NCBI GenBank assembly: GCA_030998015.1
Contig: JARWMV010000081.1
Span: 1-64,000 of the forward strand
DNA: 64,000 nucleotides
Direction: 5' to 3'
Source of the DNA: Ceratorhiza oryzae-sativae
Lineage: Eukaryota > Basidiomycota > Agaricomycetes > Cantharellales > Ceratobasidiaceae
Made by a program: the position numbers and the translations under genes. The notes beneath the pieces are model-generated. The model was not told the origin of the DNA. It did no database searches and worked only from the letters and a program-made list of their open reading frames with translations. Positions 6,151-53,629 of this stretch are shown piece after piece; position 1 is the stretch's first letter; the number at the start of each line of letters is the position of its first letter.

Positions 6151-6175
6151 CTCTTTTATTTTATTCTCCGCACAT

Positions 6176-12819: not shown

Positions 12820-12820
12820 C

Positions 12821-22171: not shown

Positions 22172-22192
22172 TCTTATTCAAATTCTCGAAGT

Positions 22193-24781: not shown

Positions 24782-24795
24782 AATATAGTAATAAT

Positions 24796-26057: not shown

Positions 26058-26268
26058 GCCCCCGCTCTATCGGCTAAAATCTTAGGTGTAACCCAAGATT
26101 TCAGCCGCCCTGCCTAGAGAACTGCGCTTTAGCGCACGTCTTGGCAGGGGTAATAAAGCGGAGGGTCAACGACCCGTGGGCATTGTTAACGAGGCCGCGT
26201 TCGCGGCGAGCCGCGCGCACGCCAGGGCCGCCTTGGCAAGCCAAGGCGTTCGCAGGCGTGCACGGGTC
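26058..26268 (-). repeat. element P with nested CCCTGCC palindrome
   Basis: Mirror of 12,610-12,819. Confidence 0.85.
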
Positions 26269-26439
26269 CCGCCGCGTTAGAGGGAATCCTAAAGATTCCC
26301 TCGTAGAAAATGACGACCGTTCGTCATTTTCAGCCGGCGGCTAAATATCGATATTATGCCGCGCACTAGCAATCGCAAACGGTTGCGATTGCTCACGTTG
26401 GTTGGTGGGACAAGTCCCACCAGCAACTAACGCGCGCGG
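26269..26439 (+). repeat. element A, one base shorter
   Basis: Mirror of 12,438-12,609 with GCCGGCG reduced to GCCGCG. Confidence 0.92.
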
Positions 26440-27690: not shown

Positions 27691-27724
27691 TGCGAAAGCA
27701 TAGGCACAATTAAACAAAAAAAAA

Positions 27725-28402: not shown

Positions 28403-28804
28403 ACAAGATCAGTTAAACATAATCTTGGGCTCAACTCCGGTAATAGAGCTTCTTACCATACATCTTCTTACTCGGGTAAATTAGATCCTTGGGCTGTTAC
28501 AGGTCTAGTGGATGCTGAGGGCTATTTTGGTTTCACTATTACAAAAAAAAGTGGGAGAAAACTAGGTTTCGAACTAAAACCCCAATTTTGTCTTCACATG
28601 CATGCTAGAGAGTATGATCTACTTGTCAGTTTAAAAGAATTCTTTGGGGTAGGTACAGTCACTTTAAGAAGTAAAGACGCGTATTATGCTGTATATTCTA
28701 AAAGGGATCTCGAAATTATTGTTCAACATTTTAAACTATTCCCTTTATTGACCTCAAAAAGAAATAGTTTCTTTATATTTTTAATTGTTTTTGATATGTT
28801 CTGT

Positions 28805-28976
28805 CCGCCGGCGTTAGAGGGAATCCTAAAGATTCCCTCGTAGAAAATGACGACCGTTCGTCATTTTCAGCCGGCGGCTAAATATCGATATTATGCCGCG
28901 CACTAGCAATCGCAAACGGTTGCGATTGCTCACGTTGGTTGGTGGGACAAGTCCCACCAGCAACTAACGCGCGCGG
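28805..28976 (+). repeat. element A (plain copy)
   Basis: Inside the nad6-linked HEG; supplies the stop PPALEGILKIPS* to the upstream frame. Confidence 0.93.
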
Positions 28977-29014
28977 ACATCTTTCTGTGGAAGGTTTCAT
29001 GAGAGCTGTTTCAT

Positions 29015-29261
29015 ACCCCCGCTTAGGGTCAACCAGCATTGTATTTATATATAAATACATGCTGTTGACCCGTGGGTATGGATATCGAGGCCGCGTTCGC
29101 GGCGAGGTATTGCGAGGTACCCTGGAACTTTAAGTTCCAGGGTACCTCGGAATCAGACGCCGCGCGCACGCCAGGGCCGCCTTGGCTTACATTGACCTTA
29201 AGGTCAATATGAGCCAAGCTTGCTTGGCTTAAGCCAAGGCGTTCGCAGGCGTGCACGGGTC
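29015..29261 (-). repeat. element P, fully loaded form
   Basis: Abuts element A at 29,262; mirror of 9,616-9,862. Confidence 0.85.
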
Positions 29262-29433
29262 CCGCCGGCGTTAGAGGGAATCCTAAAGATTCCCTCGTAG
29301 AAAATGACGACCGTTCGTCATTTTCAGCCGGCGGCTAAATATCGATATTATGCCGCGCACTAGCAATCGCAAACGGTTGCGATTGCTCACGTTGGTTGGT
29401 GGGACAAGTCCCACCAGCAACTAACGCGCGCGG
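29262..29433 (+). repeat. element A (plain copy)
   Basis: Mirror of 9,444-9,615. Confidence 0.93.
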
Positions 29434-29745
29434 AAACTATCTTAACAGACCATTAGAACCCGAGACATTAAACTCTATCACAGGGATTTACGGAAAACTA
29501 CCATTGACCCCCCAAACTGATGCAGCTATGCTGCATTGTTTGGGGGGGTAATGGCCCTCCCAATACGTTGGCCTTACAGGCTTGGTAACGCATTGGGAGG
29601 TCATTGTTAATCTTACCGCCTGTTGTAAAGTATTCTAGTGTAACTATTCCAAGTCCTTGGTGGGTTATTGGGTTTATATCCGGACAATCTAAATAAAGGT
29701 TTGCCTGAAGAATTGAAAATAGCGTTCACAAATGTTGTCCCTGTA

Positions 29746-30414
29746 GACCCCCAATGATTACATTATTGGGGGGCTACTGCCCCTCAAACAATGCAGCGTA
29801 GCTGCACATGTTTGGGGGTCAGTAGAGAGACCAGAGTATGGTTTCAACTGGTCCAGTTGCATGGTGGTCCAGTTGCATGGTGGTCCAGATGGAAATATAC
29901 CTTATCCTATGTGGATCTCCGGGTTTGTTTCTGGAAAATGATAACCTCGACTGTGGGCGGCTTTAGCCGCCCACAGGCTCCGGGCAGCGTAGCTGCACAT
30001 GTTTGGGGGGCAGAAGTCTGCGGTCGTGTTCCTGGAACAAGACCACAGACGAGGTAGAAATAGTAATTCAAGTTTTTATCCTTAAAAATAAATTATTTGA
30101 AACTAATCTTAGTTACGAGGCTAACTTTTTTTAAAAGTTTATTTCTGAGTTGTCTCCTAATGATAAATATCCATTTAGGAAGACAAGCCAACTTTTAGGT
30201 CCGGGGTTCCAAGATTGGTCTTTCTGTCTCCGAGGGCTCCAGTGATGGACTCCTCAGCCGGGAAGTCGATTTGAGCTTTACTTCTATCCAGATATGGAAG
30301 AAACCGGACCTTTGGATTCTATTGTTCTCCGTATAGAGATGTAGACGATTCCAAAGTTAGGTCAGATTCCTAAAATTTGAAGAAAGTTTTGAGTCCTATA
30401 ATCGCCTGAATCAT
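29746..30414 (+). other. group I intron-like core, GIY-YIG intron family
   Basis: Contains GAAATAGTAATTCA, AACTAATCTTAGTTACGAGG and AGTTTTGAGTCCTATA, all shared with the intron carrying the GIY-YIG HEG at 42,546-44,407. Also holds MWISGFVSGK, a stray LAGLIDADG-type motif (29,900-29,943), and two GC hairpins. Left-arm copy 8,463-9,131. Confidence 0.5.
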
Positions 30415-30633
30415 ACCCCCGCTTATCGGCTGAAATCTTAGGTGTAACCCAAGATTTCAGCCGATAAGCGGAGGGTCAACGACCCGTGGGTATGGTTATC
30501 GAGGCCGCGTTCGCGGCGAGGTATTGCGAGGTACCCTGGAACTTTCAGTTCCAGGGTACCTAGGAATCAGACGCCGCGCGCACGCCAGGGCCGCCTTGGC
30601 TTAAGCCAAGGCGTTCGCAGGCGTGCACGGGTC
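30415..30633 (-). repeat. element P
   Basis: Mirror of 8,244-8,462; lies between the intron core and the HEG start. Confidence 0.85.
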
Positions 30634-30700
30634 ATAAATTGTGTGGCAAATAGGGTATTCAAAACAACATAACTCGTGTTTTCACCTTTTTAATTTTTAA

Positions 30701-31231
30701 ATGAGAAATATTACAAAATCACAATTTCACACTTTTTCTCCTCTTAGCCGAAAAATTATGACAAAAGAAGAACGATCACTTTTTTCTTTATCTGCTGATT
30801 TAAAGGCCATATTGGTTGGTCTACTATTGGGAGACCTTTATGCTCGAAAACAAAAAAGAAGTGTAAATGCGTGTTTATGCTTCGAACAGGGACTTGTTCA
30901 TGAGACTTATCTTTTCCATCTCTACGATTTATTTAAAAGTTACTGTCAATCAGCCCCCCAAACAAGTAATCGACTTCCTGATAAACGAACCGGTAAAATC
31001 TATGCTAGAGTCACATTTACAACCTGTGCATTACCTTGCTTTAATGAGTTATATGACCCGCGCACGCCAGGGCCGCAGCTTATAGCTGCGATCGTAGGCG
31101 GGCACGGGTAAGTGATCTACTTACTCCTATATCTTTAGCTTATTGGCTATGCGACGATGGTAGTTTTTGTAAATCAAGTCAAAGAGTTACTCTTTGTACA
31201 GAATCATTTACTTTCCCCACAGAATCGACGC
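30701..31231 (+). pseudogene. LAGLIDADG HEG truncated by element A
   Basis: N-terminal two thirds of a LAGLIDADG_2 HEG: MTKEERSLFSLS, LVGLLLGDLYARKQKRS (first motif), CFEQGLVHETYLFHLYDLF and LPCFNELYD. A short palindromic insert (about 31,053-31,109, CGCGCACGCCAGG...GGGCACGGG) follows, then DLLTPISLAYWLCDDGSF (second motif) and LCTESFTF. It ends abruptly at element A (31,232). The missing end (EEVTLLVTVLNDKFGLKCY ... KIGL) appears 2.1 kb downstream at 33,337-33,610. The leader AACTCGTGTTTTCAC precedes it, as at 41,302 and 44,407. Left-arm copy 7,646-8,176. Confidence 0.82.
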
Positions 31232-31403
31232 CCGCCGGCGTTAGAGGGAATCCTAAAGATTCCCTCGTAGAAAATGACGACCGTTCGTCATTTTCAGCCG
31301 GCGGCTAAATATCGATATTATGCCGCGCACTAGCAATCGCAAACGGTTGCGATTGCTCACGTTGGTTGGTGGGACAAGTCCCACCAGCAACTAACGCGCG
31401 CGG
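31232..31403 (+). repeat. element A truncating a HEG
   Basis: Mirror of 7,474-7,645. Confidence 0.93.
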
Positions 31404-31930
31404 GCCTTCGCAAAGCACCGATTCTTGACCCCCGATTTTGCGCCAAATCGGACTCTTCCCTTACAGGCCCCCGCTAATCGATACCCCTGCCAAGACGTGC
31501 GCTAAAGCGCAGTTCTCTAGGCAGGGTGTAGATTTGCCTTCGCAAATCATCGATTAGTGGGAGCCCTCCGCGCTTAGGCCGCCCTGCGGGCGATCAAAGA
31601 GCGCGGAGGGGAAGAGGTTCCCTAGCAGCGTGTACTTGTACACGCTGACGACAGGGTTAGGGTAGGAGATCTCAGCGCTTAGGCCGCCCTTCGGGCGATA
31701 AAAGAGCGCGTTAGAAAGAAGAAGTAAACTCCCCTGCAAAAAGCCTAGGTACAATTAATTATACCTAGGACTTTTTGCCGGTAGATCGCTAAAGCGGCCG
31801 TGGGCGGCAGGGGACTCCTAAGGATGCCCCTCAAACAATGCAGCGTAGCTGCACATGTTTGGGGGGCAGTAGGCGGGCGTTTGATTTATATCCTCTGCTA
31901 ACTTCTATCCTCGCCCCTACAAATTGATGT
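31404..31930. repeat. stacked palindromes, no gene (right arm)
   Basis: Mirror of 6,948-7,473, one base longer. Confidence 0.65.
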
Positions 31931-32152
31931 CCGCCGGCGTTAGAGGGAATCCTCAGATGAGGTAGCCTTGACCATGAGTCTCATGGTCCAGGCTACCTCC
32001 CATAAAGATTCCCTCGTAGAAAATGACGACCGTTCGTCATTTTCAGCCGGCGGCTAAATATCGATATTATGCCGCGCACTAGCAATCGCAAACGGTTGCG
32101 ATTGCTCACGTTGGTTGGTGGGACAAGTCCCACCAGCAACTAACGCGCGCGG
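31931..32152 (+). repeat. element A + nested B
   Basis: Mirror of 6,726-6,947. Confidence 0.93.
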
Positions 32153-32525
32153 GCCTACGCAAAGCATCACCCCGCTAATCGATACCCCTGCCAAGACGTG
32201 CGCTAAAGCGCAGTTCTCTAGGCAGGGTGTAGATTTGCCTTCGCAAATCATCGATTAGTTGAGCCCTCCGCGCTTAGGCCGCCCTGCGGGCGATCAAAGA
32301 GCGCGAGGGATGGATTTTGTAAGGAGCGTTCAGCGCTTAGGCCGCGCCTAAAGGCGCGATCAAAGAGCGTTAGAGAAATAGCTTTTTGACCCGAGCACGC
32401 CTGCGAACGCCCTGGCTTAAGCCAAGGCGGCCCTGGCGTGCGCGCGGCGTCTGATTCCGTCGGAATCAGACGCCGGCCGCGCTGGCGCCACAAGTTTTGT
32501 GGCGCGCATTGCAATCATTGGGGGT
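32153..32525. repeat. stacked palindromes (right arm)
   Basis: Mirror of 6,357-6,725. A few bases differ near 32,305-32,318 (GGGATGGATTTTG versus the mirror), the clearest small inter-arm change. Confidence 0.65.
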
Positions 32526-32706
32526 CACCGGCGACGGATTGTTTAAATAGACCCTTAGAAGCTGAAACATTAGAATCAGTCACATCTATCTACGGTGCGT
32601 TACTTGAATTAATTTTAACTCCTGTAATTAAATACACAAGCATAGTTTTACCAAACCCATGGTGGATCGTAGGATTTGTGAGCTTTAATACTATTTTAGT
32701 AAATTA
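32526..32706 (+). pseudogene. LAGLIDADG_1 second-domain fragment
   Basis: Frame with DCLNRPLEAETLESVTSIYG followed by LPNPWWIVGFVS, then a stop. It closely parallels NRPLEPETLNSITGIYG...PSPWWVIGFISG in the nad6-linked HEG. It is therefore a linker plus second LAGLIDADG motif of a related HEG, truncated right after the motif. Left-arm copy 6,176-6,356. Confidence 0.6.
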
Positions 32707-32731
32707 ATGTGCGGAGAATAAAATAAAAGAG

Positions 32732-32824
32732 ATGAAAACAACAATAATGCTTTTTGCTTGTAACATTGTAAATATGTTAGCCAATGTGCTACCTTCTCTT
32801 CGAATATCTCCTCTATTATTACCC
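32732..32824 (+). pseudogene. nad2-like N-terminal fragment
   Basis: MKTTIMLFACNIVNMLANVLPSLRISPLLL, nearly the same at DNA level as 38,309-38,400 and 60,905-60,945 (TTAGCCAATGTGCTAC, TCTTCGAATA). It is cut by a CGAGAATCGATG palindrome. Similar to the ND2 N-terminus by pattern only. Confidence 0.35.
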
Positions 32825-33336
32825 TCGAGAATCGATGTAGATTTGCCAGGGCAAATCATCGATTCTCGGCGAGGTATTGCGAGGTACCCTGGAACTTTAA
32901 GTTCCAGGGTACCTCGGAATCAGACGCCCGCCGCGCTGGGGACGACCGAATGCACCTTTACGGTGGTTTTGGGCCCTAGTGCCCCCCAAACATGTGCAGC
33001 TACGCTGCATTGTTTGGGGGGCATCCACCCCCCAAATGAAGCAATTACGGGGCCTCTAAAATAGCTTTGCTATTTTAAGTGGCCCCTAATTGCATCATTG
33101 GGGGTCTACGGGCATCCTCTAGCCCTCCGCGCTTAGGCCGCCCTGCGGGCGATCAAAGAGCGCGGAGGGGAAGAGGTTCCCTAGCAGCGTGTACTTGTAC
33201 ACGCTGACGACAGGGTTAGGGTAGGAGTTCTCTCTCTTCCCTTTCAGCTGCTCCCCAATGATTGCAATGCGCGCCACAAGACGAGCCCCCCGCTCAGGCC
33301 GCCCTTCGGGCGATCAAAGAGCGCGTTAGAAAGAAG
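32825..33336. repeat. stacked GC palindromes (right arm)
   Basis: Mirror of 5,546-6,057. Confidence 0.7.
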
Positions 33337-33610
33337 AAGTAACTCTTTTAGTTACTGTCTTAAATGATAAGTTCGGGTTAAAATGTTACTTAAACAAACC
33401 CGCGGCCATAAGGACTTTGATTCCGAGGTAGCCTGGAACCTCGGGGGTCCAGGCTACCTCGCAATACCTCTAGCTACTGGAGGCCGCGTATCCGCCGGCT
33501 CCCGGCGGGGTTATGTAATCATAATACCCGCTTATTCAATTTCTGTGTTACAAGAATTGTTGGCTACTGAGATGAACCCCATGATGAAATACAAAATTGG
33601 CTTAAATCCC
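33337..33610 (+). pseudogene. LAGLIDADG HEG C-terminal fragment
   Basis: EEVTLLVTVLNDKFGLKCYLNK, then a palindromic insert (GAGGTAGCCTGGAAC and CCGCC...GGCGG types, about 33,410-33,510), then VIIIPAYSISVLQELLATEM and the family end NPMMKYKIGL. It fits as the missing end of the HEG truncated at 31,231. Left-arm copy 5,272-5,545. Confidence 0.72.
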
Positions 33611-33857
33611 CTCCTAGCCAGAACTCCATATGCGAAAAGCAACGGCCTCCCAATGCGTTACCAAGCCTGTAAGGCACGCCCTACGGGCCAGCGTATTGGG
33701 AGTGCCATTACCCCCCCAAACAATGCAGCATAGCTGCATCAGTTTGGGGGGTCAACTGCCATTCATCATCACATGCCCCGAAGGGCCCGAAAGGGATGAT
33801 GGCCCCAGAGGGAAAAATGCTAATGTAATTTTGAGATTTGAACAAGGAATTATTCAT

Positions 33858-34104
33858 ACCCCCGCTTAGGGTCAACCAGCATTGTATTTATATATAAATA
33901 CATGCTGTTGACCCGTGGGTATGGTTATCGAGGCCGCGTTCGCGGCGAGGTATTGCGAGGTACCCTGGAACTTTCAGTTCCAGGGTACCTCGGAATCAGA
34001 CGCCGCGCGCACGCCAGGGCCGCCTTGGCTTACATTGACCTTAAGGTCAATATGAGCCAAGCTTGCTTGGCTTAAGCCAAGGCGTTCGCAGGCGTGCACG
34101 GGTC
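33858..34104 (-). repeat. element P, fully loaded form
   Basis: Interrupts a HEG at RFEQGIIH|HLY; mirror of 4,778-5,024. Confidence 0.85.
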
Positions 34105-34276
34105 CCGCCGGCGTTAGAGGGAATCCTAAAGATTCCCTCGTAGAAAATGACGACCGTTCGTCATTTTCAGCCGGCGGCTAAATATCGATATTATGCCGCG
34201 CACTAGCAATCGCAAACGGTTGCGATTGCTCACGTTGGTTGGTGGGACAAGTCCCACCAGCAACTAACGCGCGCGG
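34105..34276 (+). repeat. element A (plain copy)
   Basis: Mirror of 4,606-4,777. Confidence 0.93.
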
Positions 34277-34592
34277 ACCTTTTTCATTTGTATGTTTTAT
34301 ACAAAAATTATTGCTTGTCAGCTCCAACAACCTCTAACCGATTGCCTGACATAAGAACAGGGTGTACAATCGGGTAAGTTTTAACACTATGGCATTACCT
34401 TGTTTTAATGAACTTTATTGTCTTTTTTATTCTGATAAGAAAAAAGTAATTCCCCTACCCTATCTCGTGTCAACTACTCTGAAGTTGTTGCACGTACGTG
34501 CAACAATTTCACGCTTGTAGAGGAGACGTCTGTGTGCGGCTTAAGCCGTACACAGACGGCTCCGAAGCTTGAGTCGAACCGTGGTTTAGCGT

Positions 34593-34764
34593 CCGCGCGC
34601 GTTAGTTGCTGGTGGGACTTGTCCCACCAACCAACGTGAGCAATCGCAACCGTTTGCGATTGCTAGTGCGCGGCATAATATCGATATTTAGCCGCCGGCT
34701 GAAAATGACGAACGGTCGTCATTTTCTACGAGGGAATCTTTAGGATTCCCTCTAACGCCGGCGG
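34593..34764 (-). repeat. element A (plain copy)
   Basis: Mirror of 4,118-4,289. Confidence 0.93.
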
Positions 34765-34975
34765 GACCCGTGCACGCCTGCGAACGCCTTGGCTTGCCAA
34801 GGCGGCCCTGGCGTGCGCGCGGCTCGCCGCGAACGCGGCCTCGTTAACAATGCCCACGGGTCGTTGACCCTCCGCTTTATTACCCCTGCCAAGACGTGCG
34901 CTAAAGCGCAGTTCTCTAGGCAGGGCGGCTGAAATCTTGGGTTACACCTAAGATTTTAGCCGATAGAGCGGGGGC
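34765..34975 (+). repeat. element P with nested CCCTGCC palindrome
   Basis: Mirror of 3,907-4,117. Confidence 0.85.
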
Positions 34976-35147
34976 CCGCGCGCGTTAGTTGCTGGTGGGA
35001 CTTGTCCCACCAACCAACGTGAGCAATCGCAACCGTTTGCGATTGCTAGTGCGCGGCATAATATCGATATTTAGCCGCCGGCTGAAAATGACGAACGGTC
35101 GTCATTTTCTACGAGGGAATCTTTAGGATTCCCTCTAACGCCGGCGG
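34976..35147 (-). repeat. element A, outer IR boundary (right)
   Basis: Plain 172-bp copy, whereas its mirror at 3,685 has nested B. It cuts the GIY-YIG HEG that ends at 35,148. Confidence 0.93.
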
Positions 35148-37160: not shown

Positions 37161-37237
37161 AAAAGTTAATTAATATATTTATAAGACTAGAATTTTCAAG
37201 GTATATCATATTCTGGGAATACAATCACATCCTCTAT

Positions 37238-37390
37238 GACCCGTGCACGCCTGCGAACGCCTTGGCTTAAGCCAAGGCGGCCCTGGCGTGCGCGCGGCTC
37301 GCCGCGAACGCGGCCTCGATATCCATTACCCCTCGGGTCAACAGCATGTATTTATATATAAATACAATGCTGGTTGACCCTAAGCGGGGG
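37238..37390 (+). repeat. element P
   Basis: In the leader of the nested intron's HEG. Confidence 0.85.
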
Positions 37391-37574
37391 TATGAATGAA
37401 GAACGGAGCCCTTCACCATAAGACGAAACCTAGGGCCATTCTAAAATTTACGAAGTAGAGTTCGCATATTGTGCCGTGCTTTTAAAAAATTATCTCTGAT
37501 ATATTTTAAAAATACAGTTAAAATGGGTAATCTAGTGGAGTATGGTTTGAGGTTTTTATGACCTCTTCTTTTAT

Positions 37575-38643: not shown

Positions 38644-39039
38644 TTAGTATTGGCTGTCAAGCCACACTAGGTATTTTTCTAGTGACACAGCTTCAATTAC
38701 TGCAGGCATGAATCCATGGTATACTCCGCAGATTTCAGAGCATTGCCCGTAGAACACACCTTCCCGTTGAACAAGAACTGAAGTTTGATTTAATCGACCA
38801 GGAACTGCATCTATTTTAAGACCTAATGATGGTACAGCAAAATCGTGAATTACATCTGTAGCTGTTACAATAAATCTGATGTGTGTGTCTACAGGAACAA
38901 CAACTCTGTTATCAACATCAAGTAATCTTAATTGCCCATCTTCTAGGTCGCTTTCAGGAACCATATATGAATCGTATTCAATGGCTTCTCCGTCTTCGTT
39001 AATAAAATCAGAGTATTCATATGACCAATACCATTGGTG
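38644..39039 (-). CDS. cox2: cytochrome c oxidase subunit 2, exon 4
   Basis: 131 residues plus TAA. It encodes the soluble CuA domain facing the intermembrane space: [12 protein letters not shown] at its start, [12 protein letters not shown] (CuA His), and [16 protein letters not shown] (the Cys-Glu-Cys-His-Met CuA ligands). All ligand residues are present. The exon starts after an intron ending ...CTATTG, and CACCAA is repeated at the end of exon 3, so the boundary could shift by up to six bases. With exons 1-3 the total is 251 codons, the usual fungal length. The 9.1 kb to exon 3 include rnl segments. Confidence 0.96.
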
Positions 39040-39255
39040 CAATAGAAAAAATTCTATTTCGACTGTACATTAAACAATATATTTTATATTAAATATTACG
39101 ATATAATAATATACTGCCCACCAGTGACCCAGTCTGTGGCAGTTAATGTAAATTGCCTTTCACTGAGTTCAATTGTAATTGATTTCTCAAAGAAGAAAAT
39201 TTGTCCATTCCCTGACAGTCTTATAATTATAGCGGTACTAATTCTATAAAAATTT
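39040..39255 (-). other. 3' part of a group I intron before cox2 exon 4
   Basis: GAAAGGCAATTTACATTAACTGCC is interrupted-stem-like, and CAGACTGGGTCACTGG is P7/P3-like. Ending in G before CACCAATGG fits a group I 3' end. It lies directly downstream of rnl sequence. Confidence 0.5.
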
Positions 39256-39376
39256 TAACTGTTTTTACTAGTGTCGCCAAAAGATAGTAACTCCCCCAAC
39301 TCAGTACCCCCAAAGATGAAAAACTGCGCTTTGGCTGGATAAAAAGAGGGCCTTGTCGTATTAAATCCAACAGCCG
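39256..39376 (-). other. sequence after rnl segment, possible intron 5' part
   Basis: Begins right after GCGAGTTGGGTT of LSU domain V with CGGCTGTTGG, which does not continue the rRNA. Group I introns are known near this peptidyl-transferase site in fungi, so this may be the 5' part of an LSU intron fused to the cox2 intron end. Confidence 0.35.
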
Positions 39377-39528
39377 AACCCAACTCGCGTACCCTTTTAA
39401 TCGGCGAACAGCCGAACCCTTCCAAGCTTGTGCACCCGGAGGATAGGATGAGTCGACATCGAGGTGCCAAACAGTCCGGACAATATGTACTCTCGCGGAC
39501 TATCAGCCTGTTATCCCTAGCGTCATTT
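39377..39528 (-). rRNA. rnl: LSU rRNA domain V segment (exon)
   Basis: The minus strand carries ACGCTAGGGATAACAGGCTG, then TTTGGCACCTCGATGTCG, GGCTGTTCGCC and TACGCGAGTTGGGTT, the universally conserved LSU sequence of the peptidyl-transferase region (about E. coli 2440-2504). It lies between cox2 exons 3 and 4 on the same strand. The 5' neighbour is a group I intron with a GIY-YIG HEG; the 3' continuation of domain V is not found. It may be a functional exon of a rearranged rnl or a displaced fragment. Confidence 0.9.
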
Positions 39529-40302
39529 AGGATACGATCTTCGATCGTTAAAATTTTGATTAAATCAAAAATGGACTATATCTTCAAACTAATTTTGTAA
39601 ATCAATTCGAGCCATGTATAGTCTCTGAAGCCCAAGGTAATTTATTTATATTAAATTACCAACCAGGGCTTGCGGATATTTCTTATATTGATTCGCATTA
39701 TGAGTATGTTAATGAATACTAGCTACACAAAAGAATTTCCCCGCATATAATGGCTATTCACTGATCTATGCCAAGTGCACAGTTAATCTTTATTTGACAT
39801 CACAAATAAAGAAAACCAGTGGTCACGCCTTTTCAATTCCCCTCTGGGGTGAGATTATTTAGCCACATACAATTTATATTGAAGGGGGTTAGAATTATTA
39901 CCCCTGCCAAGACGTGCGCTAAAGCGCAGTTCTCTAGGCAGGGTTTAATATTGAGTTATCCCATTTGTCTTGAATGTTGGATACAAAGATGTATGTTTCT
40001 ACTACTAGATCTTTATCCAAAGCTCTACTTACTTTGTATCTAGATAACTCTAAACTTGAAGCACAAGATTTAACACTAAGAAAAGGAGGAAACAATAATA
40101 CATGAGCTGAGCTATATACAAACACACGTTTTCTCATGCCACTATTATTACTCATTTTCTGTAAAGATTCTGCTGTGAAAGCTTCTAAACCTTTAAGTCC
40201 TTTTCTGTGACTTGGTTTTCCAAGTTTAGCCTCACTCATTTTCGCCCTAGTCTCTGGTGACATTTTTATCCCTAAATTACTGCCTGCTTTTTTAAGAATA
40301 TT

Positions 40303-40467
40303 ACCCGTGCACGCCTGCGAACGCCTTGGCTTGCCAAGGCGGCCCTGGCGTGCGCGCGGCTCGCCGCGAACGCGGCCTCGTTAACAATGCCCACGGGTCG
40401 TTGACCCTCCGCTTTAGCGGCTGAAATCTTGGGTTACACCTAAGATTTTAGCCGATAGAGCGGGGGC
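40303..40467 (+). repeat. element P
   Basis: Abuts element A at 40,468 inside the rnl-intron HEG. Confidence 0.85.
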
Positions 40468-40689
40468 CCGCGCGCGTTAGTTGCTGGTGGGACTTGTCCC
40501 ACCAACCAACGTGAGCAATCGCAACCGTTTGCGATTGCTAGTGCGCGGCATAATATCGATATTTAGCCGCCGGCTGAAAATGACGAACGGTCGTCATTTT
40601 CTACGAGGGAATCTTTATGGGAGGTAGCCTGGACCATGAGACTCATGGTCAAGGCTACCTCATCTGAGGATTCCCTCTAACGCCGGCGG
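40468..40689 (-). repeat. element A + nested B
   Basis: 222-bp copy interrupting the HEG after LLEPES. Confidence 0.93.
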
Positions 40690-40939
40690 ATTCAGGCTCC
40701 AATAGATCGATATAGTACTGCTCTTTTTCCAGAAGTATTGATCTAGCTTCTGTAGATGTTAGTCCGTCTACATTAACTACTTCCAATATTTCTAAAGTAA
40801 AGTTTATATAACCATATTTCAGAAGAGATCTGTACAAAATACTTTCTCCTCGTTTTAACTCTCTTAAAGATCGTTCAGAGTTAAAATACTCTTTAATTCG
40901 TCTATTAAGATCTATTGAAGAACCAACATAAGTTTTATT

Positions 40940-41103
40940 ACCCGTGCACGCCTGCGAACGCCTTGGCTTGCCAAGGCGGCCCTGGCGTGCGCGCGGCTCG
41001 CCGCGAACGCGGCCTCGTTAACAATGCCCACGGGTCGTTGACCCTCCGCTTTAGCGGCTGAAATCTTGGGTTACACCTAAGATTTTAGCCGATAGAGCGG
41101 GGG
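40940..41103 (+). repeat. element P splitting the GIY-YIG motif
   Basis: Sits between the GIY and YVG strands of the HEG, with no element A attached, so it can insert on its own. Confidence 0.85.
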
Positions 41104-41520
41104 CATTATTCGAAGAATTAATCCATCTATAAATGCCGGATTTTCCATTTAGGGATTTTAATACATCAGAAGTAGAAACCTCGGCTAAATTAAATAGTTG
41201 AGTTTCAACCCCAGTGCTACTTGAGCTATATCTGACATGTTGAGTTGTTGAAAATTTTAATTTGATGTAAAACATTATATATTTATTGAAAAGTGAAAAC
41301 ACGAGTTATTTTGTTCTGATTATTTTATATCTAAAACTCAAAACTGTCCCCAATTTTCGGAATCGAAATTTGGTTCATCTGCTGCTCGCATAAGCATAGC
41401 CCCCATATCTATTCGTGGTCTTATCAGACCTACTTTAGACTGAAGGTATAATATTCTATACAAAACGGCATGTTTCCTAGATAAAGATTGAATCTCTACC
41501 GAAAACTTCAGAACGATACT

Positions 41521-41692
41521 CCGCCGGCGTTAGAGGGAATCCTAAAGATTCCCTCGTAGAAAATGACGACCGTTCGTCATTTTCAGCCGGCGGCTAAATA
41601 TCGATATTATGCCGCGCACTAGCAATCGCAAACGGTTGCGATTGCTCACGTTGGTTGGTGGGACAAGTCCCACCAGCAACTAACGCGCGCGG
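41521..41692 (+). repeat. element A (plain copy, reference)
   Basis: Reference 172-bp copy with hairpins in order: AGGGAATC/GATTCCCT, GAAAATGACGA/TCGTCATTTTC, AATATCGATATT, GCAATCGCAA/TTGCGATTGC and GTTGGTTGGTGGGAC/GTCCCACCAGCAAC. Ends CCGCCGGCG and CGCGCGCGG. No protein is encoded. Confidence 0.95.
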
Positions 41693-41847
41693 AGTAAGCC
41701 TCGTAACTATGATTAGTTTCAAGCAAATGTGAAATTTGATATACAAAATCACAATACATGAATTACTATTTCTTTTATTTATCTTTTGTGCAACACTTGT
41801 TCATTTTAAATATCTCAACGGTGGCTAATTAATAATTGAAAATTTAT

Positions 41848-42065
41848 AACTTTTATCTATTGTGCGACGGCTATTCCATAATATACCGCCGGATCATTAT
41901 GCCCTACTTTCGTATCTGGTTGACTTATGGGTCTCTCAGTTAAGCATGCTGGTCAAGCCAAAAGCTAACGCTAGAGTTAACAAGAGTTATACTTTATCTT
42001 TAAAAAGTTCCGTCGAACTCTTAGAGAATGTTTTAATATTCTCACGACTATCAAATATACTTAAT
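41848..42065 (-). rRNA. rnl: LSU rRNA domain V segment (upstream exon)
   Basis: The minus strand contains GCTTGACCAGCATGCTTAAC, ACGAAAGTAGGGCATAATGA, TCCGGCGGTATATTATGGAA, TAGCCGTCGCAC and GATAAAAG, matching the conserved stretch ending at about E. coli 2437 (GGTCATAGTGATCCGGTGGT...CCATCGCTCAACGGATAAAAG). Its 5' limit is uncertain; the block before GTTCGACGG is already variable. A LAGLIDADG HEG end lies immediately upstream, so another intron precedes it. Confidence 0.88.
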
Positions 42066-42114
42066 TCATATTAAATAATTTATTGTTGTATAGAATAACT
42101 ATATCTTGAAAAAC

Positions 42115-42415
42115 GATGATTTATGTTATACCCAATTTGTAGTACATTGAAGGATGCAAATGTGGAAGTATTAATTCTTTTAATCTGCTCAAAGATTCCT
42201 TTTTAATCCCTGCCAAGACGTGCGCTAAAGCGCAGTTGCCAGGCAGGGCCAGTAAATAGAATATTTATTATCTAAATGTATTTTTTGCACAGTACAATTT
42301 AAGCCAAATTTATTAGTTAATAAATTCTTTAAATATTCTACTTCTGATAGAGTAAAATTATTAGTTGCTATTCTCACACCATATTGTGTGTAACCTCCAT
42401 CATCGCTTATAAGCT
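42115..42415 (-). pseudogene. LAGLIDADG HEG C-terminal half in rnl intron
   Basis: LISDDGGYTQYGVRIATNNF (second motif), TLSEVEYLKNLLTNKFGLNC, SIYW. A 40-bp CCCTGCC palindrome (42,209-42,248) then interrupts IYIKKESLSRLKEL, and the family end LHPSMYYKLGIT follows. The 5' half is displaced by the GIY-YIG intron, whose 3' end lies at about 42,418, so the junction falls at the catalytic DDG segment. Confidence 0.72.
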
Positions 42416-42566
42416 ACATAGAAGAAAAAGTACCCAGGATTTTCAGGGTAACCATAATATCATCCGGGCCTCGAACAGCCTTCGACCTTCCAGAACTTAA
42501 CATGACCTTCCTCTGGATCTAATGATCTGGAAGAGGGGTTTTATTCTATTTTAAAGAGATTTCATA

Positions 42567-42719
42567 CCCCCGCTTAGGGTCAACCAGCATTGTATTTATA
42601 TATAAATACATGCTGTTGACCCGAGGGGTAATGGATATCGAGGCCGCGTTCGCGGCGAGCCGCGCGCACGCCAGGGCCGCCTTGGCTTAAGCCAAGGCGT
42701 TCGCAGGCGTGCACGGGTC
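42567..42719 (-). repeat. element P near HEG 3' end
   Basis: Separates KIFQNLY from EISLK-stop of the GIY-YIG HEG. Confidence 0.85.
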
Positions 42720-42852
42720 ATATAAATTTTGGAAAATTTTTTTTGATTTTATGTATCTATGGATTGTAGGACAACTTGTTTTTAGACTCATAGCAGCTTT
42801 TCTTATGGAACTATATTCTTTAATCTCATTTGTTTTAATATTAACAACAACT

Positions 42853-43117
42853 GACCCCCAAACATGTGCAGCTACGCTGCATTGTTTGGGGGGCAGTAGC
42901 CCCCCAATAATGTAATGGCCCTCCCAATACGTTGGCCCGTAGGGCCCAAAACCACCGTGAAGGTGTTTCCAAAAACACCTTTACGGTGGTTTTGGGCCTT
43001 ACAGGCTTGGTAACGCATTGGGAGGTCATTGTAATCATTGGGGGTAGCCCCCCAATAATGCAATGCAATCATTGGGGGGTAGCCCCCCAATAATGCATTG
43101 CAATCATTGGGGGTCAA
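42853..43117. repeat. nested C-tract palindromes
   Basis: Four or more layers: CCCCCAAACATGTGCAGC, CCCAATACGTTGG/CCAACG-type, GCCCAAAACCACCGT/ACGGTGGTTTTGGGC with CACCTTTACGG core, and tandem CCCCCAATAATG units. Confidence 0.8.
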
Positions 43118-43385
43118 CTGTTTTTAGTGCAAGCCCTGTAAAATCGGAGCTTGAATTTGTAGTCCAAGCTTCTTGCACAGATATAGGCTCGACATAGCTG
43201 TTAGGCGTCAATCTTTTTAAACTTTCTATCTGATTGTTAAAAGAATTTGTTGTTTCCCCGGTTCTTAATATTCGTACCCAAAATCTATTTCTGTAAAGGT
43301 CGGTAATACTACTTATTGATTTATCTCTAAGAGAATTATCCAGTTTGACTAAACTTTTAGTATCTAATTTTGTAGATTCGCTAGC

Positions 43386-43557
43386 CCGCCGGCGTTAGAG
43401 GGAATCCTAAAGATTCCCTCGTAGAAAATGACGACCGTTCGTCATTTTCAGCCGGCGGCTAAATATCGATATTATGCCGCGCACTAGCAATCGCAAACGG
43501 TTGCGATTGCTCACGTTGGTTGGTGGGACAAGTCCCACCAGCAACTAACGCGCGCGG
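43386..43557 (+). repeat. element A (plain copy)
   Basis: Exact removal rejoins GATTCT and GCTAGC of the host HEG in frame, with no target duplication visible. Confidence 0.93.
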
Positions 43558-43861
43558 AGAATCAAAAGTTTGTGCAATTTTTGTATTATTATCGAATACA
43601 ATTACTTTATAACCTTTTTCTAAATTAATTTTGGCCAGATGAGATTGAAGTAGTTCTAAAGTTTCCTTTGAAAATTTTTTCCGTGGTACCGTTCTCATTT
43701 TTTCTAGAGTTTCTTCAGTGTGCTTATATCCTAATGAAGAATAAGCTTTTTTTAATATGTTGTACTCAGGGTTTAAAAAATCAATATAGTGTTGTTCTCG
43801 AGATACGACATCCTTTGAATCACAATATTCTAGTATGTCCAATTTAAAAACCGTCGCGCTG

Positions 43862-44103
43862 GGACCGCCCGAATGGATGCCCGTAGACCCCCAATGATGC
43901 AATTAGGGGCCACTTAAAATAGCAAAGCTATTTTAGAGGCCCCGTAATTGCTTCATTTGGGGGGTGGATGCCCCCCAAACAATGCAGCGTAGCTGCACAT
44001 GTTTGGGGGGCACTAGGGCCCAAAACCAGACTCGGTCATCGCAGATGTCCGGCAGGGGTTAGTCAAAGACTAACCCGCTTACCGTCCCCAGCGCGGCCGG
44101 CTC
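43862..44103. repeat. nested C-tract palindromes
   Basis: CCCCAATGATG/CTTCATTTGGGG arms enclosing a TAAAATAGCAAAGCTATTTTA hairpin, then CCCCAAACAATGCAGC and TTAGTCAAAGACTAA hairpins within a GCTGGGAC/GTCCCCAGC shell. Confidence 0.75.
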
Positions 44104-45095
44104 GAGGGTTAGATAAACCATTTTTCAGTAAAGCAGAACTTATGATACTTTTGGATTTTGTAGTTATTTTTTGCAAAAGAATATTAGAAAAATAAGTTAC
44201 AAATCTTTTAGCCAAGTTTGTTGAGCTTCCGATATATTTGAACCCTGTAAGATTATTTGTCAAACAGTAGATACCTGATTTTTGGTTATTTTCCAAGAAA
44301 ATTTGTTTTTTTTGGTTTTGCAGATCAGAATAAGATACTCCGCTCCCTGGATCTCTAGAGATCCAGGAGGCGGGATTAACAGTATTTAAATTATTTGTAT
44401 TTTTCATTGAAATTTTTGTAGAGTGAAAACACGAGTTATTTTGTAATTGAATATCCTATATTGCCTTACCTCGACTGTGGACGCCTTTAGTCGACCACAG
44501 GCTCGGTCGCCGAGTCTGCGGTCGGGCATTCGCTAGACCACAGACGAGACAAGGATTCAGCCTTATAGGACTCAAAACTTTCCCCAAAATTCGGAATCCA
44601 CGAAATTTTGGATCATCTGCTGCCCTGTTTTACCGTCTCGTGTCAACATAGTTGACCGGACGGTAAAACTGCCCAACCCTGACAAAAACCCGGTTAGACC
44701 GGGGGACTATATCGAGTCCATGATTGCAATTCCAGGGTTGTTGAAATGTTTTAACCCTCGTCTATATAGATCTGGGCGACAAGTCGGCATGGGGTAATAC
44801 TATTTCCACTTCAGAGACCTCAGAAAGAAACCTTTAGTAAAGGTTAGCCTCGTAACTAAGATTAGGTTCAATTAGCTTGGTATGGTTCCCCGTAAAGGGT
44901 CAATTACAAAAATTGGCCAACCCAGTAAAATTGAATTCCTATTTCTTTTATAACTTCCCTCATCACATAAAAATGGGATAATAAACCCCCACACTTCGGT
45001 CGTGTTCACATTTCTCTACTTTTGCAGAGTATCTTTGCAACAAGAGTAATTTTTAATTGACAACAGTACTCCTGTGTAACCCTGTCGTCTACTGC

Positions 45096-45222
45096 CCCCC
45101 AAACATGTGCAGCTACGCTGCATTGTTTGAGGGGCATCCGCCCCCCAATAAGGTAATGGCCCCCCCCAATACGTTTGTGACGCATTGGGAGGCCATTGCC
45201 TTGTTGGGGGTCTACAGGGAAC
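45096..45222. repeat. nested C-tract palindromes
   Basis: Same order as 49,687-49,812 and 53,757-53,880 (CCCCCAAACATGTGCAGC, CCCCCAATAAGG, CCCAATACGTTTGTGACG). Confidence 0.8.
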
Positions 45223-45432
45223 CCGGCAATATGGTAGAACAATCGAGGCGGTTTATAAGTTCCAAAGACTCTGAAGATATTTACCTTTTTTACTTTTTCC
45301 CAAATAAGATTTTATACCAAAAAAATCATGTAAGACTTTAATTAAATTTTCATTATCTATTTTTGAGTAAAAACAAGTATTTAATACTAACTTTCCATTG
45401 TAAAAATGTCCATTCGTTTAGATCCAAATGGC

Positions 45433-45604
45433 CCGCCGGCGTTAGAGGGAATCTGAAAGATTCCCTCGTAGAAAATGACGACCGTTCGTCATTTTCAGCC
45501 GGCGGCTAAATATCGATATTATGCCGCGCACTAGCAATCGCAAACGGTTGCGATTGCTCACGTTGGTTGGTGGGACAAGTCCCACCAGCAACTAACGCGC
45601 GCGG
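45433..45604 (+). repeat. element A (loop variant)
   Basis: Hairpin loop reads CTGAAA instead of CCTAAA, as at 57,060 and 61,989. Confidence 0.93.
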
Positions 45605-45686
45605 GCAGTAATATAATTTTCTAGAGTTTGGGGTACTATTTTTTTCCCATTTTTGTAGAAAGATGAATATAACCAATAAAGACTAC

Positions 45687-45858
45687 CCGCCGGCGTTAGA
45701 GGGAATCCTAAAGATTCCCTCGTAGAAAATGACGACCGTTCGTCATTTTCAGCCGGCGGCTAAATATCGATATTATGCCGCGCACTAGCAATCGCAAACG
45801 GTTGCGATTGCTCACGTTGGTTGGTGGGACAAGTCCCACCAGCAACTAACGCGCGCGG
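45687..45858 (+). repeat. element A (plain copy)
   Basis: 83 bp from the previous copy, both in the same HEG. Confidence 0.93.
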
Positions 45859-46135
45859 AGTGTTAAATTCATAACCGTAATATTCTCTATCAACACCTTT
45901 AATAGTTCTAAATATTTTCTAGGTTCAAGTTTGCTACAGTAGCCTCTAGCTAGAAAGAATTCGTATAAACTAAATAAATAATCTTTATGTATTATACTTT
46001 GTTTAATTGAAAAACGAGGGGTTTATATGGCAAGCATTAGTATTAAACTCCATAGAGTTAAATGTTGCCAACCTTCCTGGCCTGAGTCCTGAAAACAGTA
46101 AATAGGAGGGGTTACTAAACTTGAAAATAAAAAAA

Positions 46136-46774
46136 TTAAAGACCTATTTTATAAAGCATTGATGGTGGAAGAATGTCCTTTAACATATTTTGTAAAACTG
46201 GGAGTGATTTAGAGGAGATTTTAATTGCATAGCCACTATATTGTTTTTGAACGGTACATTTTAAACCGAATTTGCTAGTTAAAGCATCAGCTAAAAGTTT
46301 AACCTCTGACAATTTGAAACTATTTGTTGCTAATGTCAATGTTCGACCTTTTTTATCCAAACCTCCATCATCAGCTATCCAATAGCATATACCCAAAGGT
46401 GTTAAAAGATCCCCTATATTCGCAGGCACTTTTTTTACCCCATTAATATAAAATAGTTCGTATAGCTCGTTAAAGCAAGGTAAAGCAAAAGTAGAAAAAC
46501 GTATTTTACCATGTTCTTTACCAGATCTTTTATCAAACACGTGGTAGATTAAAGGTTTCTGCGAACCATAAGATTTAAATAATTCGTACAAGTGAAGAAG
46601 GTATTCTTTGTGAACAAGACCTTGTCCAAAACAACATCGAACACTTGTAGTTGAATTTGATCTTTTTTGCATAAAAAGGTCACCCAATATAAGACCGACA
46701 AGAATATCCTTCAATTGGTCAGTTAAACTAAATTGTAATCGTTCTGCTCTAGTTAAATAATTTTTTCTTTGCAT
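46136..46774 (-). CDS. intact LAGLIDADG homing endonuclease
   Basis: 212 residues with no insert. N-terminal LTRAERLQFSL, first motif ILVGLILGDLF (about residues 22-32), FGQGLVHKEYLLHLYELF, LPCFNELYELFY, second motif LLTPLGICYWIADDGG (about 125-140), ATNSFKLSEVKLLADALTSK, and the family end PPSMLYKIGL. This is a LAGLIDADG_2-type protein whose two motifs in one chain suggest a monomeric homing nuclease. The start ATG is followed by QRKNYL, matching relatives. The leader block TAGAGGATGTGATTATATTA (46,838-46,857) is shared with 23,050 and 37,230. It is the best candidate for an active nuclease of this intron family. Confidence 0.9.
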   Translation of the reverse strand: MQRKNYLTRAERLQFSLTDQLKDILVGLILGDLFMQKRSNSTTSVRCCFGQGLVHKEYLLHLYELFKSYGSQKPLIYHVFDKRSGKEHGKIRFSTFALPCFNELYELFYINGVKKVPANIGDLLTPLGICYWIADDGGLDKKGRTLTLATNSFKLSEVKLLADALTSKFGLKCTVQKQYSGYAIKISSKSLPVLQNMLKDILPPSMLYKIGL

Positions 46775-46970
46775 AAATGTTAATTAAGAATATTTATAAG
46801 ACTTCCATTTTAAAGGTATATCATATTAAAGATTAATATAATCACATCCTCTATGAATATTAAACTTATGTATTTTTTTATTTCTTAAGGAAATTGTGTT
46901 TAAATATATTGAGAATACATAGCCTAATACCATAAGACGAAACCTAGGGCCTTTTCTTCAATTATTATAA

Positions 46971-47231
46971 TTAGGGGAATACCTGGGGCATGGCTTCCAG
47001 TTGGAGACTAGTAGGAAGCCCAGGGGTAACTGGGCGCCCCACCCAACAGGGCGAATGCCATAATTCGATTCCACAGTAGACCCCCAATGATTGCAATGGC
47101 CCTCCCAATACGTTGGCCCGTAGGGCCCGCCTTACAGGCTTGGTAACGCATTGGGAGGTCATTGCATTATTGGGGGGCTACTGCCCCCCAAACAATGCAG
47201 CGTAGCTGCACATGTTTGGGGGTCAGTAGTA
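46971..47231. repeat. nested C-tract palindromes in intron
   Basis: CCCCCAATGATTGC / GCATTATTGGGG shell enclosing CCCAATACGTTGG, followed by CCCCAAACAATGCAGC. Also an imperfect hairpin with GGAATACCTGGGGC (46,976-46,990). Confidence 0.7.
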
Positions 47232-47312
47232 ATATATTAAGAAAAGGGTAAGGAAGTGGAGTATGGTTTAAAATTATTTGTGAGGGTTAAATTTGTTAAC
47301 CTCTTCTTTTAT

Positions 47313-47465
47313 GACCCGTGCACGCCTGCGAACGCCTTGGCTTAAGCCAAGGCGGCCCTGGCGTGCGCGCGGCTCGCCGCGAACGCGGCCTCGATATCCA
47401 TTACCCCTCGGGTCAACAGCATGTATTTATATATAAATACAATGCTGGTTGACCCTAAGCGGGGG
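47313..47465 (+). repeat. element P near intron 5' end
   Basis: Same host position (TTTTAT|...|TATGAAATTTCC) as the element P at 37,575. Confidence 0.85.
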
Positions 47466-47659
47466 TATGAAATTTCCACAAAAATTAAACATACCATAAA
47501 TTAGTACTCCTTCTTTAACTGAATAAATTTAGCAATAATTATACTTGACAGTATTAGATGTAGTCAATGAAATTAGTCAACATCTAACAGGTCCCTGATG
47601 CGGCATGTTAATGCTGCATCAGTATATTCGATTAGGCACCCCTGCGCTCCCGCCAATGT

Positions 47660-47880
47660 TTCACTGGCGGAAGCGCTGCCAACTCCTTCTCCGCTCCGAT
47701 TTACTGCATAGCCGGCTCCAAGAAGTAGACCTATTAAAACTGCTATAACATCTTCGTTATGGGGACCTATACGGTTAACAGCTCTACATGAATTATGAAA
47801 AGATCTTTTTTGTGCTCTTAATCTATTTTGTTTATTCCCATTTTTTGAAAATTGAATAATTGTAGAATTATCATTTCTAT
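47660..47880 (-). pseudogene. LAGLIDADG HEG of cox2 intron 3, N-terminal part
   Basis: STIIQFSKNGNKQNRLRAQKR followed by RIGPHNEDVIAVLIGLLLGA and GYAVNRSGE, a first LAGLIDADG motif in which the catalytic Asp is Ala (LLLGAGY instead of LLLGDGY). A short CGCCAGTGAAACATTGGCG hairpin (about 47,651-47,672) then breaks the frame. The same type of HEG is common in cox introns. Inactive by motif mutation and interruption. Confidence 0.65.
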
Positions 47881-48157
47881 AAAAAAACTCCCGAGCGTAG
47901 ATCGCGCCTTAGCGCGGCCCACGCTCGGGCAGCGCCTAACGATCGGGATGATTTCCGCATGTTTGGGGGGCAGTAGGGAAATCGACGCCCGATCGTTGGG
48001 GGAATAAAGAAATAAGAAAAAATCAAAACAACGGATTGACATATTCACAAATAATACTTACAATAAAAAATTTAATAGTACATGATATATCATGTAATTG
48101 TAACAAGATTTTGTTTATTTTATTATTTATATTTGATTTTAGGCCAAATATTTGGTG
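47881..48157 (-). other. 5' part of cox2 intron 3
   Basis: AT-rich, starting CACCAAATATTTGG after exon 3. Contains a CCCGAGCGTAGATCGCGCC/GGCCCACGCTCGGG hairpin and a CGATCGGG..CCCGATCG shell with a degenerate C-tract (47,890-48,000). Confidence 0.55.
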
Positions 48158-48196
48158 ACCTGCTACTTTAATAGTCATAGTTGGTGAAATTACTTC
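48158..48196 (-). CDS. cox2: cytochrome c oxidase subunit 2, exon 3
   Basis: A 39-bp exon coding EVISPTMTIKVAG, the conserved stretch just before HQWYW. It follows exon 2 (…LLYMLD) in frame. The upstream intron ends in G (…GCG|GAAGTA). The downstream end is set at GGT because exon 4 begins CACCAATGG; CACCAA also follows exon 3, leaving a six-base ambiguity. Microexon length and conservation make a chance match unlikely. Confidence 0.9.
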
Positions 48197-48894: not shown

Positions 48895-49690
48895 CTATAA
48901 ACCAAACTTGTAGTGCATGCTTGGATGCACATGAGGAATAACCAAAGATCTAAAAAGTGGCATAGATTTTGATTTTATGTAAATCATAGGTTTATTAGAA
49001 TGGTTTTGCACTGAAACTGCTAAACCAAAATTATAGTGTAAAATGGCAGCCAATTTGTAAACTTCCTTATACTCGAAACCTTCAGTGTGAAGATAAAACC
49101 CAGAAACTGCGTTAGCACCATCATCAGCGGCCCAAAAAGCTAAAGCTCGAGGTGTTAATTCACTGATAATGTCGTCTTTTATTACTTTGACCCATTTGCC
49201 TTCTTCTTTAATGTAAAATAGGTCCCGCCGGCGTTAGAGGGAATCCTAAAGATTCCCTCGTAGAAAATGACGACCGTTCGTCATTTTCAGCCGGCGGCTA
49301 AATATCGATATTATGCCGCGCACTAGCAATCGCAAACGGTTGCGATTGCTCACGTTGGTTGGTGGGACAAGTCCCACCAGCAACTAACGCGCGCGGCATT
49401 AAAAAAAGAATAACTTCGCGTTCGTATTCTTAAATTGTAACAGAGAGTTTGGTTTCTTAGAGAAACCCCAAAGTCAGGCACTCTTTCACAAAGATGTGAT
49501 AAATATGAAAATACAAACCAAACATATTCAAATCTTTGAATGGTTTGTGTGAATCTAAAACTAGGATTTTTAGAAGTGTGGGAGACAAACAATGTACCGT
49601 CACCGAGAAGGTGTCCGACTAATTGTTCTCTTGTTGGATAATCCAGTTTAGTTATATTTCTTGAATGAGGGTTGAGACGAATTCCTACTG
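48895..49690 (-). pseudogene. LAGLIDADG HEG of cox2 intron 2, one element A insert
   Basis: RNITKLDYPTREQLVGHLLG and DGTLF (first motif LVGHLLGDG), NPSFRFTQTIQRFEYVWFVF, GVSLRNQTLCYNLRIRTRSY. Element A (49,225-49,396) follows, then DLFYIKEEGKWVKVIKDDII, LTPRALAFWAADDGAN (second motif), FEYKEVYKLAAILHYNFGL and the end HPSMHYKFGL-stop. Removing the element rejoins AAT and GAC (Asn-Asp) in frame, so the gene was whole before insertion. Both catalytic acidic positions are kept, so inactivation is recent. Confidence 0.85.
49225..49396 (+). repeat. element A (plain copy)
   Basis: The only lesion of the cox2 intron 2 HEG. At most one base of target duplication. Confidence 0.93.
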
Positions 49691-49945: not shown

Positions 49946-50035
49946 ATCAAGCATGTATAATAATTTGAAACTAGGGAATGCGATAGCTATTAAAACTAAA
50001 GCCGGAGTAATAGTCCAGATTAACTCTATAAGCGT
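49946..50035 (-). CDS. cox2: cytochrome c oxidase subunit 2, exon 2
   Basis: 90 bp coding TLIELIWTITPALVLIAIAF and PSFKLLYMLD, the second transmembrane helix of Cox2. The upstream intron ends in G before ACGCTT; exon 1 ends in GGT. Reading continues past GAT into intron 2 without an immediate stop, as is common. Phase with exons 1 and 3 is continuous. Confidence 0.95.
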
Positions 50036-53398: not shown

Positions 53399-53629
53399 AC
53401 CGTGATTGGCGTATTTGTATACAATAGGTGAGCTAGTTGAGTTAAAGTTAATCATTACTGACCCTAAAGCCCAGAATACTCCTACTGAAATAACTACTAA
53501 GAAGAAGAAAATTGAATCGTGTAATTCAGTAATTCCTTCGAATCCTGGTGAAGCACCATCTTGGAATCCGATTTGCCATGGTTCTGGCGCATCGTTATAA
53601 ATTGTTTGTAAAATTGGGAATAATTTCAT
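53399..53629 (-). CDS. cox2: cytochrome c oxidase subunit 2, exon 1
   Basis: 77 codons from ATG: MKLFPILQTIYNDAPEPWQI (typical fungal Cox2 start, processed N-terminus then DAPEPWQ), DGASPGFEGITELHDSIFFF, the first transmembrane helix (about 38-58) and SPIVYKYANHG. Ends at CACGGT before intron 1. Exons 1-4 total 251 codons. The AGGAAAAATAGGGG motif lies 70 bp upstream. Cox2 is the copper A subunit of complex IV. Confidence 0.97.

Follow-up and report, generated by a model that had tools for sequence, protein, structure and literature searches.

Why does sequence of the large-subunit (LSU) ribosomal RNA (rRNA) gene, rnl, lie between exons 3 and 4 of cox2? The question is raised by a 64-kb stretch of Ceratorhiza oryzae-sativae DNA (hereafter the window, meaning this whole stretch, which belongs to contig C81). 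We treated it as mitochondrial DNA (mtDNA) of a Rhizoctonia-like fungus, and searched the assembly of 253 contigs (48.8 Mb) that contains it. The original prediction offered three options: a cox2 intron that carries rRNA sequence, recombination that left both genes split, or trans-splicing. Our results favour the first of these. We propose that cox2 intron 3 received a copied segment of rnl (a pair of exon pieces, corresponding to E. coli ~2336-2585, with their intervening intron), that the near-complete rnl found elsewhere makes the rRNA, and that the intron is removed in cis, so that the LSU block would leave with it as a passenger. Taken as a whole, this explanation is quite probable.

Two pieces of LSU sequence are found in the intron, on the same strand as cox2. 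The Rfam model LSU_rRNA_bacteria scores 136.2 bits at 39515-39350, and blastn with E. coli 23S matches the window at 39547-39377 (E 9e-21) and 41950-41847 (E 5e-8). Piece 1 (41848-41950, minus strand; E. coli ~2336-2439) shares 102 of 103 bases with contig C102 at 30894-30996, and piece 2 (39376-39522, minus strand; E. coli ~2440-2585) shares 147 of 147 bases with C102:31469-31615. The agreement of piece 2 with the intact rnl stops at 39376, and the Rfam alignment continues loosely to 39350. The copy is truncated, with ~250 of some 2900 LSU positions. The LSU limits predicted earlier thus hold for 41950-41848 and 39522-39376; the remaining part, 42065-41951, was rejected as LSU, as 42080-41951 scores no better than shuffled sequence (400 of 500 shuffles reach its score against E. 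coli LSU, and 284 of 500 against the intact rnl), whereas the matching part of the intact rnl outscores 500 of 500 shuffles against E. coli. Between the two pieces lies a group I-like intron (39523-41847, minus strand; E. coli 2449 region), on which RF00028 scores 30.2 bits at 39861-39554, under the gathering score of 50. It contains a GIY-YIG gene (PF01541, NUMOD3) that is broken by GC-rich repeats.

A much fuller rnl is found on the plus strand of C102, which we read over 13001-40000. Here a collinear gene runs from E. coli 189 to 2899 at 13.4-35.0 kb, spread over 21.5 kb with long introns. Blastn pieces with E. coli 23S fall at 13539-13968 (E. coli 189-609), 24477 (1766-1909), 26964 (1911-1971), 30766-30997 (2227-2439), 31468-31614 (2439-2585) and 34698-35001 (2597-2899), and further pieces cover E. 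coli 728-789, 780-828, 824-1034, 1068-1355, 1598-1708 and 1975-2062. The pieces 728-789, 780-828 and 1766-1909 are individually weak (E 0.009-0.027), yet they are in order. E. coli positions 1-188, 610-727, 1035-1067, 1356-1597, 1709-1765, 2063-2226 and 2586-2596 fall outside the blastn pieces, and part of these gaps is filled by Rfam (model positions 15-565 and 2082-2640), whose LSU score at C102:30579-31037 is 131.7 bits. On this blastn and Rfam coverage we call the C102 gene near-complete, which makes the LSU sequence within cox2 intron 3 a second, partial copy. That rnl is missing or scrambled in this genome was ruled out by the collinear C102 gene, which, in the explanation we propose, would be the one that makes the rRNA. 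A genome search with RF02541, in which 2 of 996 candidates were scored, gave pieces on C102 and C126; the window's own LSU was not among them, so this search is no guide to absence. A domain IV pattern allowing at most two mismatches was matched on C102, C126, C138 and C211, and the pattern AGTACGARAGGACC had no matches, the rnl sequence here differing at that place. On C126 and C138 the LSU matches are spaced as they are on C102, and the three intact-rnl placements are identical across 3171 bases around the site.

The cox2 frame is intact as well. As predicted, its four exons, all on the minus strand, form a 251-codon gene: exon 1 (53399-53629, 77 codons), exon 2 (49946-50035, 30 codons), exon 3 (48158-48196, 13 codons, with the 3' end GCAGGT) and exon 4 (38644-39039, 131 codons and the stop, starting with CACCAATGG and matching PF00116 at 197.5 bits) join into 756 nt, or 251 codons plus a stop. 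Frames were translated with table 4; the cox2 frame has no TGA codon and is hence uninformative on the genetic code. Among the best 7993 candidates by common words, the spliced Cox2 is 96-97% identical to P0002, P0010 and P0012, named Rhizoctonia solani or Rhizoctonia sp. AG-Fa. Another protein, P0001, is an uninterrupted Cox2 with 99% identity, encoded on a 1226-base contig of unstated type, and is only suggestive as a sign that intron 3 is removed.

Intron 3 itself (39040-48157, minus strand; 9118 nt, with limits taken from the difference between the exons) accounts for the ~9.1 kb that had been noted between exons 3 and 4. The upstream exon ends in U and the intron ends in G (GCAGGT upstream, ...CTATTG before CACC downstream), as group I requires, and the intron start equals the start of exon 4 over six bases (CACCAA). 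Similarly, the start of intron 1 equals that of exon 2 over eight bases. Under the rules of group I guide pairing, whose P and L-position names we follow, the shared starts, the preceding U and the final G fit cognate group I splice sites, where one guide could pair with both. Retaining the LSU block in the mRNA puts stops into the cox2 frame. Together, these features argue that exon 3 would be joined to exon 4 in cis, across a single 9.1-kb intron.

How the segment came to lie there is suggested by the divergence between the two LSU copies. Window 41950-41773 is 97.8% identical to C102:30894-31071, and 39838-39376 is 91% identical to C102:31169-31615. Within the exon pieces 1 of 250 positions differs, as against 27 of 375 ungapped positions in the aligned intron (Fisher p = 1.2e-5), which has 16 gap columns in addition; the intron at this site is ~470 nt long in the intact rnl and 2.3 kb in the window copy. 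The window copy is therefore not simply an old, decaying duplicate. An old neutral copy at half the intron distance would be expected to carry 9 exon changes (P of one or fewer = 0.0012), and at a quarter of that distance 4.5 (P = 0.06). This contrast could have arisen in any of three ways: the segment was captured recently from a diverged rnl allele, gene conversion acted on the exons only, or the copy was under selection. From a comparison of these two copies we tentatively prefer recent capture, most likely by recombination from a diverged rnl allele that bore an endonuclease; the many GC-rich repeats and endonuclease introns of this mtDNA would have provided the setting.

The edges of the block suggest exchanges within introns. 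The right edge (GGGTTC, 39376) is at, or one base beyond, the site of the intact rnl's own ~3.1 kb intron, and the left edge (41950) corresponds to the interior of an uninterrupted exon in the intact rnl. Directly upstream of the block is the C-terminal part of a LAGLIDADG_2 endonuclease (42124-42413, minus strand; best stretch 42413-42276), beside which the N-terminal half was not seen, and a GC-rich repeat (42556-42726) that is 98.8% identical to an inverted copy in the 37235-37396 region follows on the same side. No second copy of the block's flanks was found in whole-genome probe searches or in the fetched contigs.

It is possible that the block has a use and is maintained by selection, as a source of rRNA fragments or as a template for repairing rnl. 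The near-identity of the exon pieces (249 of 250) next to a diverged intron would be expected of such a block, and the exon pieces are placed around the intron like homology arms. However, a diverged allele captured recently would give the same numbers, and the GIY-YIG gene within the block has been disrupted by GC-rich insertions. Moreover, the sole exon change (window 41919) replaces A-U by A-C at a paired position within an Rfam-aligned helix, which counts mildly against function. We therefore regard maintenance by selection as unlikely, and the block as probably functionless.

It is quite unlikely that the LSU block in cox2 is an artefact of assembly. The mitochondrial contigs are redundant and several are palindromic, GC-rich repeats are abundant (a 150-nt core has 42 ungapped copies in the window), and contig C125 presents an alternative junction. 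On the other hand, the junctions recur. A 641-nt probe reaching from LSU piece 2 into cox2 exon 4 gave 22 matches, of which 18, on 14 contigs, are full-length and reported at 100%; the others are partial (C102, C126 and C138, query 3-165; C129:1-75, query 91-165). The full-length places are the same 18 at which cox2 exon 4 occurs, so that LSU piece 2 is directly upstream in 18 of 18 exon-4 placements, and the intervening 336 nt hold no dispersed repeat. Of the 14 contigs, C81, C92 and C125 were read whole, and the remainder are known as placements or short loci. A probe of LSU piece 1 with its flank gave 19 matches, 16 full-length and 3 (C102, C126, C138) limited to positions 251-421; piece 1 is present at the window's spacing (within 3 bases) in 15 of the 18 exon-4 placements. 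Of the other three, the C125 plus arm passes into unrelated sequence, and the C125 minus arm and C204 could not be followed that far.

Exon 3 gave a similar picture. Its probe had 13 placements, and in 11 of them, on 8 contigs, exon 4 follows on that strand, spaced as in the window (C81, C92, C166, C207, C209, and both arms of C130, C136 and C144). The spacing is within 3 bases of the window's in ten arms, and 253 bases shorter in the C130 plus arm (8.9 vs 9.1 kb). The two remaining placements, on C129 and at C130:857, reach the contig end before exon 4. Seven exon-4 placements lack exon 3; five of these end at a contig end (C110, C146, C183, C216 and the C125 minus arm), one (the C125 plus arm) changes to unrelated sequence, and the seventh is the placement on C204. 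In addition, the window copy's intron differs from that of the intact rnl, so the block is no collapsed or misplaced piece of rnl. The misassembly that had been envisaged at about 39,250 or 42,100 is thus improbable given junctions recurring in 14 contigs, all of which come from one single assembly.

The block could also be a portable cassette for homing or repair: a group I intron between near-perfect arms of rnl exon (103 and 147 bases) might re-enter or repair rnl through gene conversion, which would keep the arms identical. We consider this very unlikely.

That both genes are truly split, and rebuilt by trans-splicing or by isoforms from reciprocal recombination, is highly improbable. Intron-like sequence does flank the LSU block on both sides, and its right edge falls at an rnl intron site. 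Nevertheless, the genome search for an intact rnl, which had been named beforehand as a way to refute a split gene, found the near-complete, collinear gene on C102, in contrast to the scattered pieces of a fragmented or scrambled rRNA gene. Trans-splicing goes with dispersed exons and no continuous gene copy, whereas each of the 11 arms that contain both cox2 exon 3 and cox2 exon 4 has the two collinear on a single strand. Among the followable placements (of 18 for exon 4 in total), none joins the rnl 5' exons to exon 4, and the reciprocal junction, from cox2 exon 3 to rnl domain VI, was not seen either. Contig C129 was rejected as a recombinant with an LSU exon at one end and the cox2 side at the other, both being merely contig ends: the match of its first 75 bases to LSU breaks off at the very base where that of the intact rnl does, and its other end stops at window 41221. 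Gigaspora rosea reportedly has split mitochondrial genes with group I intron trans-splicing. The present locus resembles that case in having exons far apart and group I-like sequence at the edges, and differs from it in that exons 3 and 4 are ordered on one strand and a near-complete rnl copy exists elsewhere. The LSU sequence in cox2 is real and unusual, but the evidence speaks against the proposed split of either gene.

It is barely credible that cox2 now consists of two genes, one of exons 1-3 and one of exon 4, each translated on its own, as with the split cox2 genes of some algae and protists: the exons are indeed 9.1 kb apart, but there is no in-frame ATG ahead of the conserved start of exon 4 (HQWYW), the upstream frame stops at ~39070, and the exon 3 frame continues into intron sequence.

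Several points weigh against the capture of an rnl segment by a cis-spliced cox2 intron, which we prefer. Splicing across 9.1 kb is read here from DNA. The starts of intron 2 and exon 3 share no bases, and the shared-start argument is valid for two of the three introns. The right edge of the block coincides with an rnl intron site, which blind insertion of DNA would seldom hit. On the C125 plus arm, the exon-4 placement switches to unrelated sequence beyond window 40689, within a GC-rich repeat. In the interval between the LSU block and exon 4 (39040-39375, minus strand; 336 nt, fold z -2.68), no group I core was found by Rfam, loose search included. The sequence ahead of exon 4 would allow the predicted group I 3' end, for which there is no Rfam call. 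Candidate pairings can be assigned by eye (P3 39165-39160/39127-39122, P7 39134-39130/39065-39061, P8 39116-39108/39083-39075, minus strand), with P3 and P7 strands only 25 nt apart, too short for a normal P4-P6. Genome search and fetched contigs gave no second copy of this interval.

At the C125 junction (locus L019, ~4953, equal to window 40689), the segment of LSU piece 2 and exon 4 is joined to unrelated sequence with LAGLIDADG fragments, and either recombination between repeats or a mis-join could have produced this. In the search for a relative whose cox2 exon 3/4 site carries a clean intron, L053, the one locus examined of 14, proved to have its intron at the exon 2/3 site. L053 (FNAW01000012.1) is filed under Blastococcus and holds a fungal-type mitochondrial cox2 with an intron, and is probably a contamination. 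The viral-contig collection gave no matches.

With a near-complete rnl elsewhere and a truncated extra copy here, the LSU block appears to belong with the partial gene duplications known from fungal mtDNA, in an odd form. Partial copies of mitochondrial genes near endonuclease genes are described for Endoconidiophora resinifera (PMC6279837) and Sclerotinia borealis (PMC4162613), similarly truncated and with the intact gene present. The cases described there (atp6, atp9, cob) are intergenic, whereas here an internal rRNA segment with its own intron is found inside the intron of another gene. In Tremella fuciformis (PMC7315562), introns are described that carry duplicated N-terminal parts of their host gene; these are likewise fungal mitochondrial introns bearing gene fragments, but the fragment comes from the intron's own host gene and sits at the intron 5' end, unlike an rnl fragment in cox2. 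The Rhizoctonia solani mitogenomes (PMC8488467), from a similar kind of organism, are described as large and repeat-rich with LAGLIDADG and GIY-YIG genes, as here, and the available portion of that account mentions no rRNA fragment in cox2. None of the titles and abstract openings listed by our literature searches mentions a fragment of rnl within a cox2 intron.

These results suggest that an internal segment of an rRNA gene, together with its intron, can lodge in the intron of a protein-coding gene with both genes remaining whole. LSU matches within cox2 of such mitogenomes do not warrant annotation as a split rnl. The combination of near-identical exon pieces and a diverged intron makes this a locus where allele capture or gene conversion in fungal mtDNA could be tested.

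Other features of the introns were observed as well. At window 47.9-45.2 kb, the endonuclease frame of intron 3 is apparently broken by a stretch with a complete LAGLIDADG_2 gene (46783-46139), resembling an intron inside an intronic gene. The GIY-YIG regions at 44871-44335 (intron 3), 41722-41277 (the LSU block intron) and C102:31723-32706 (region of L031 and L032; the rnl intron after 2585) have short stretches that are 77-90% identical, which points to related endonuclease introns. GC-rich dispersed repeats, among them the 150-nt core, are seen for example at 41521-41694, 43385-43559, 45686-45860 and 49221-49396, and many of the copies sit within introns and endonuclease genes, some introducing stops.

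The window also contains a near-perfect (99.95%) inverted repeat of 14.6 kb (3757-18391 and 20487-35125), with a tRNA-Asn in either arm. Inverted copies of mitochondrial sequence are present in C92, C125, C130, C136 and C144 too; all of these may reflect palindromic reads in the assembly, or the mtDNA may really be inverted. Finally, rns is found in several pieces on the minus strand at 63101-56451, where the match at 56880-56451 is weak (E 0.015), with group II intron matches at 60732-60658 and 62720-62636.

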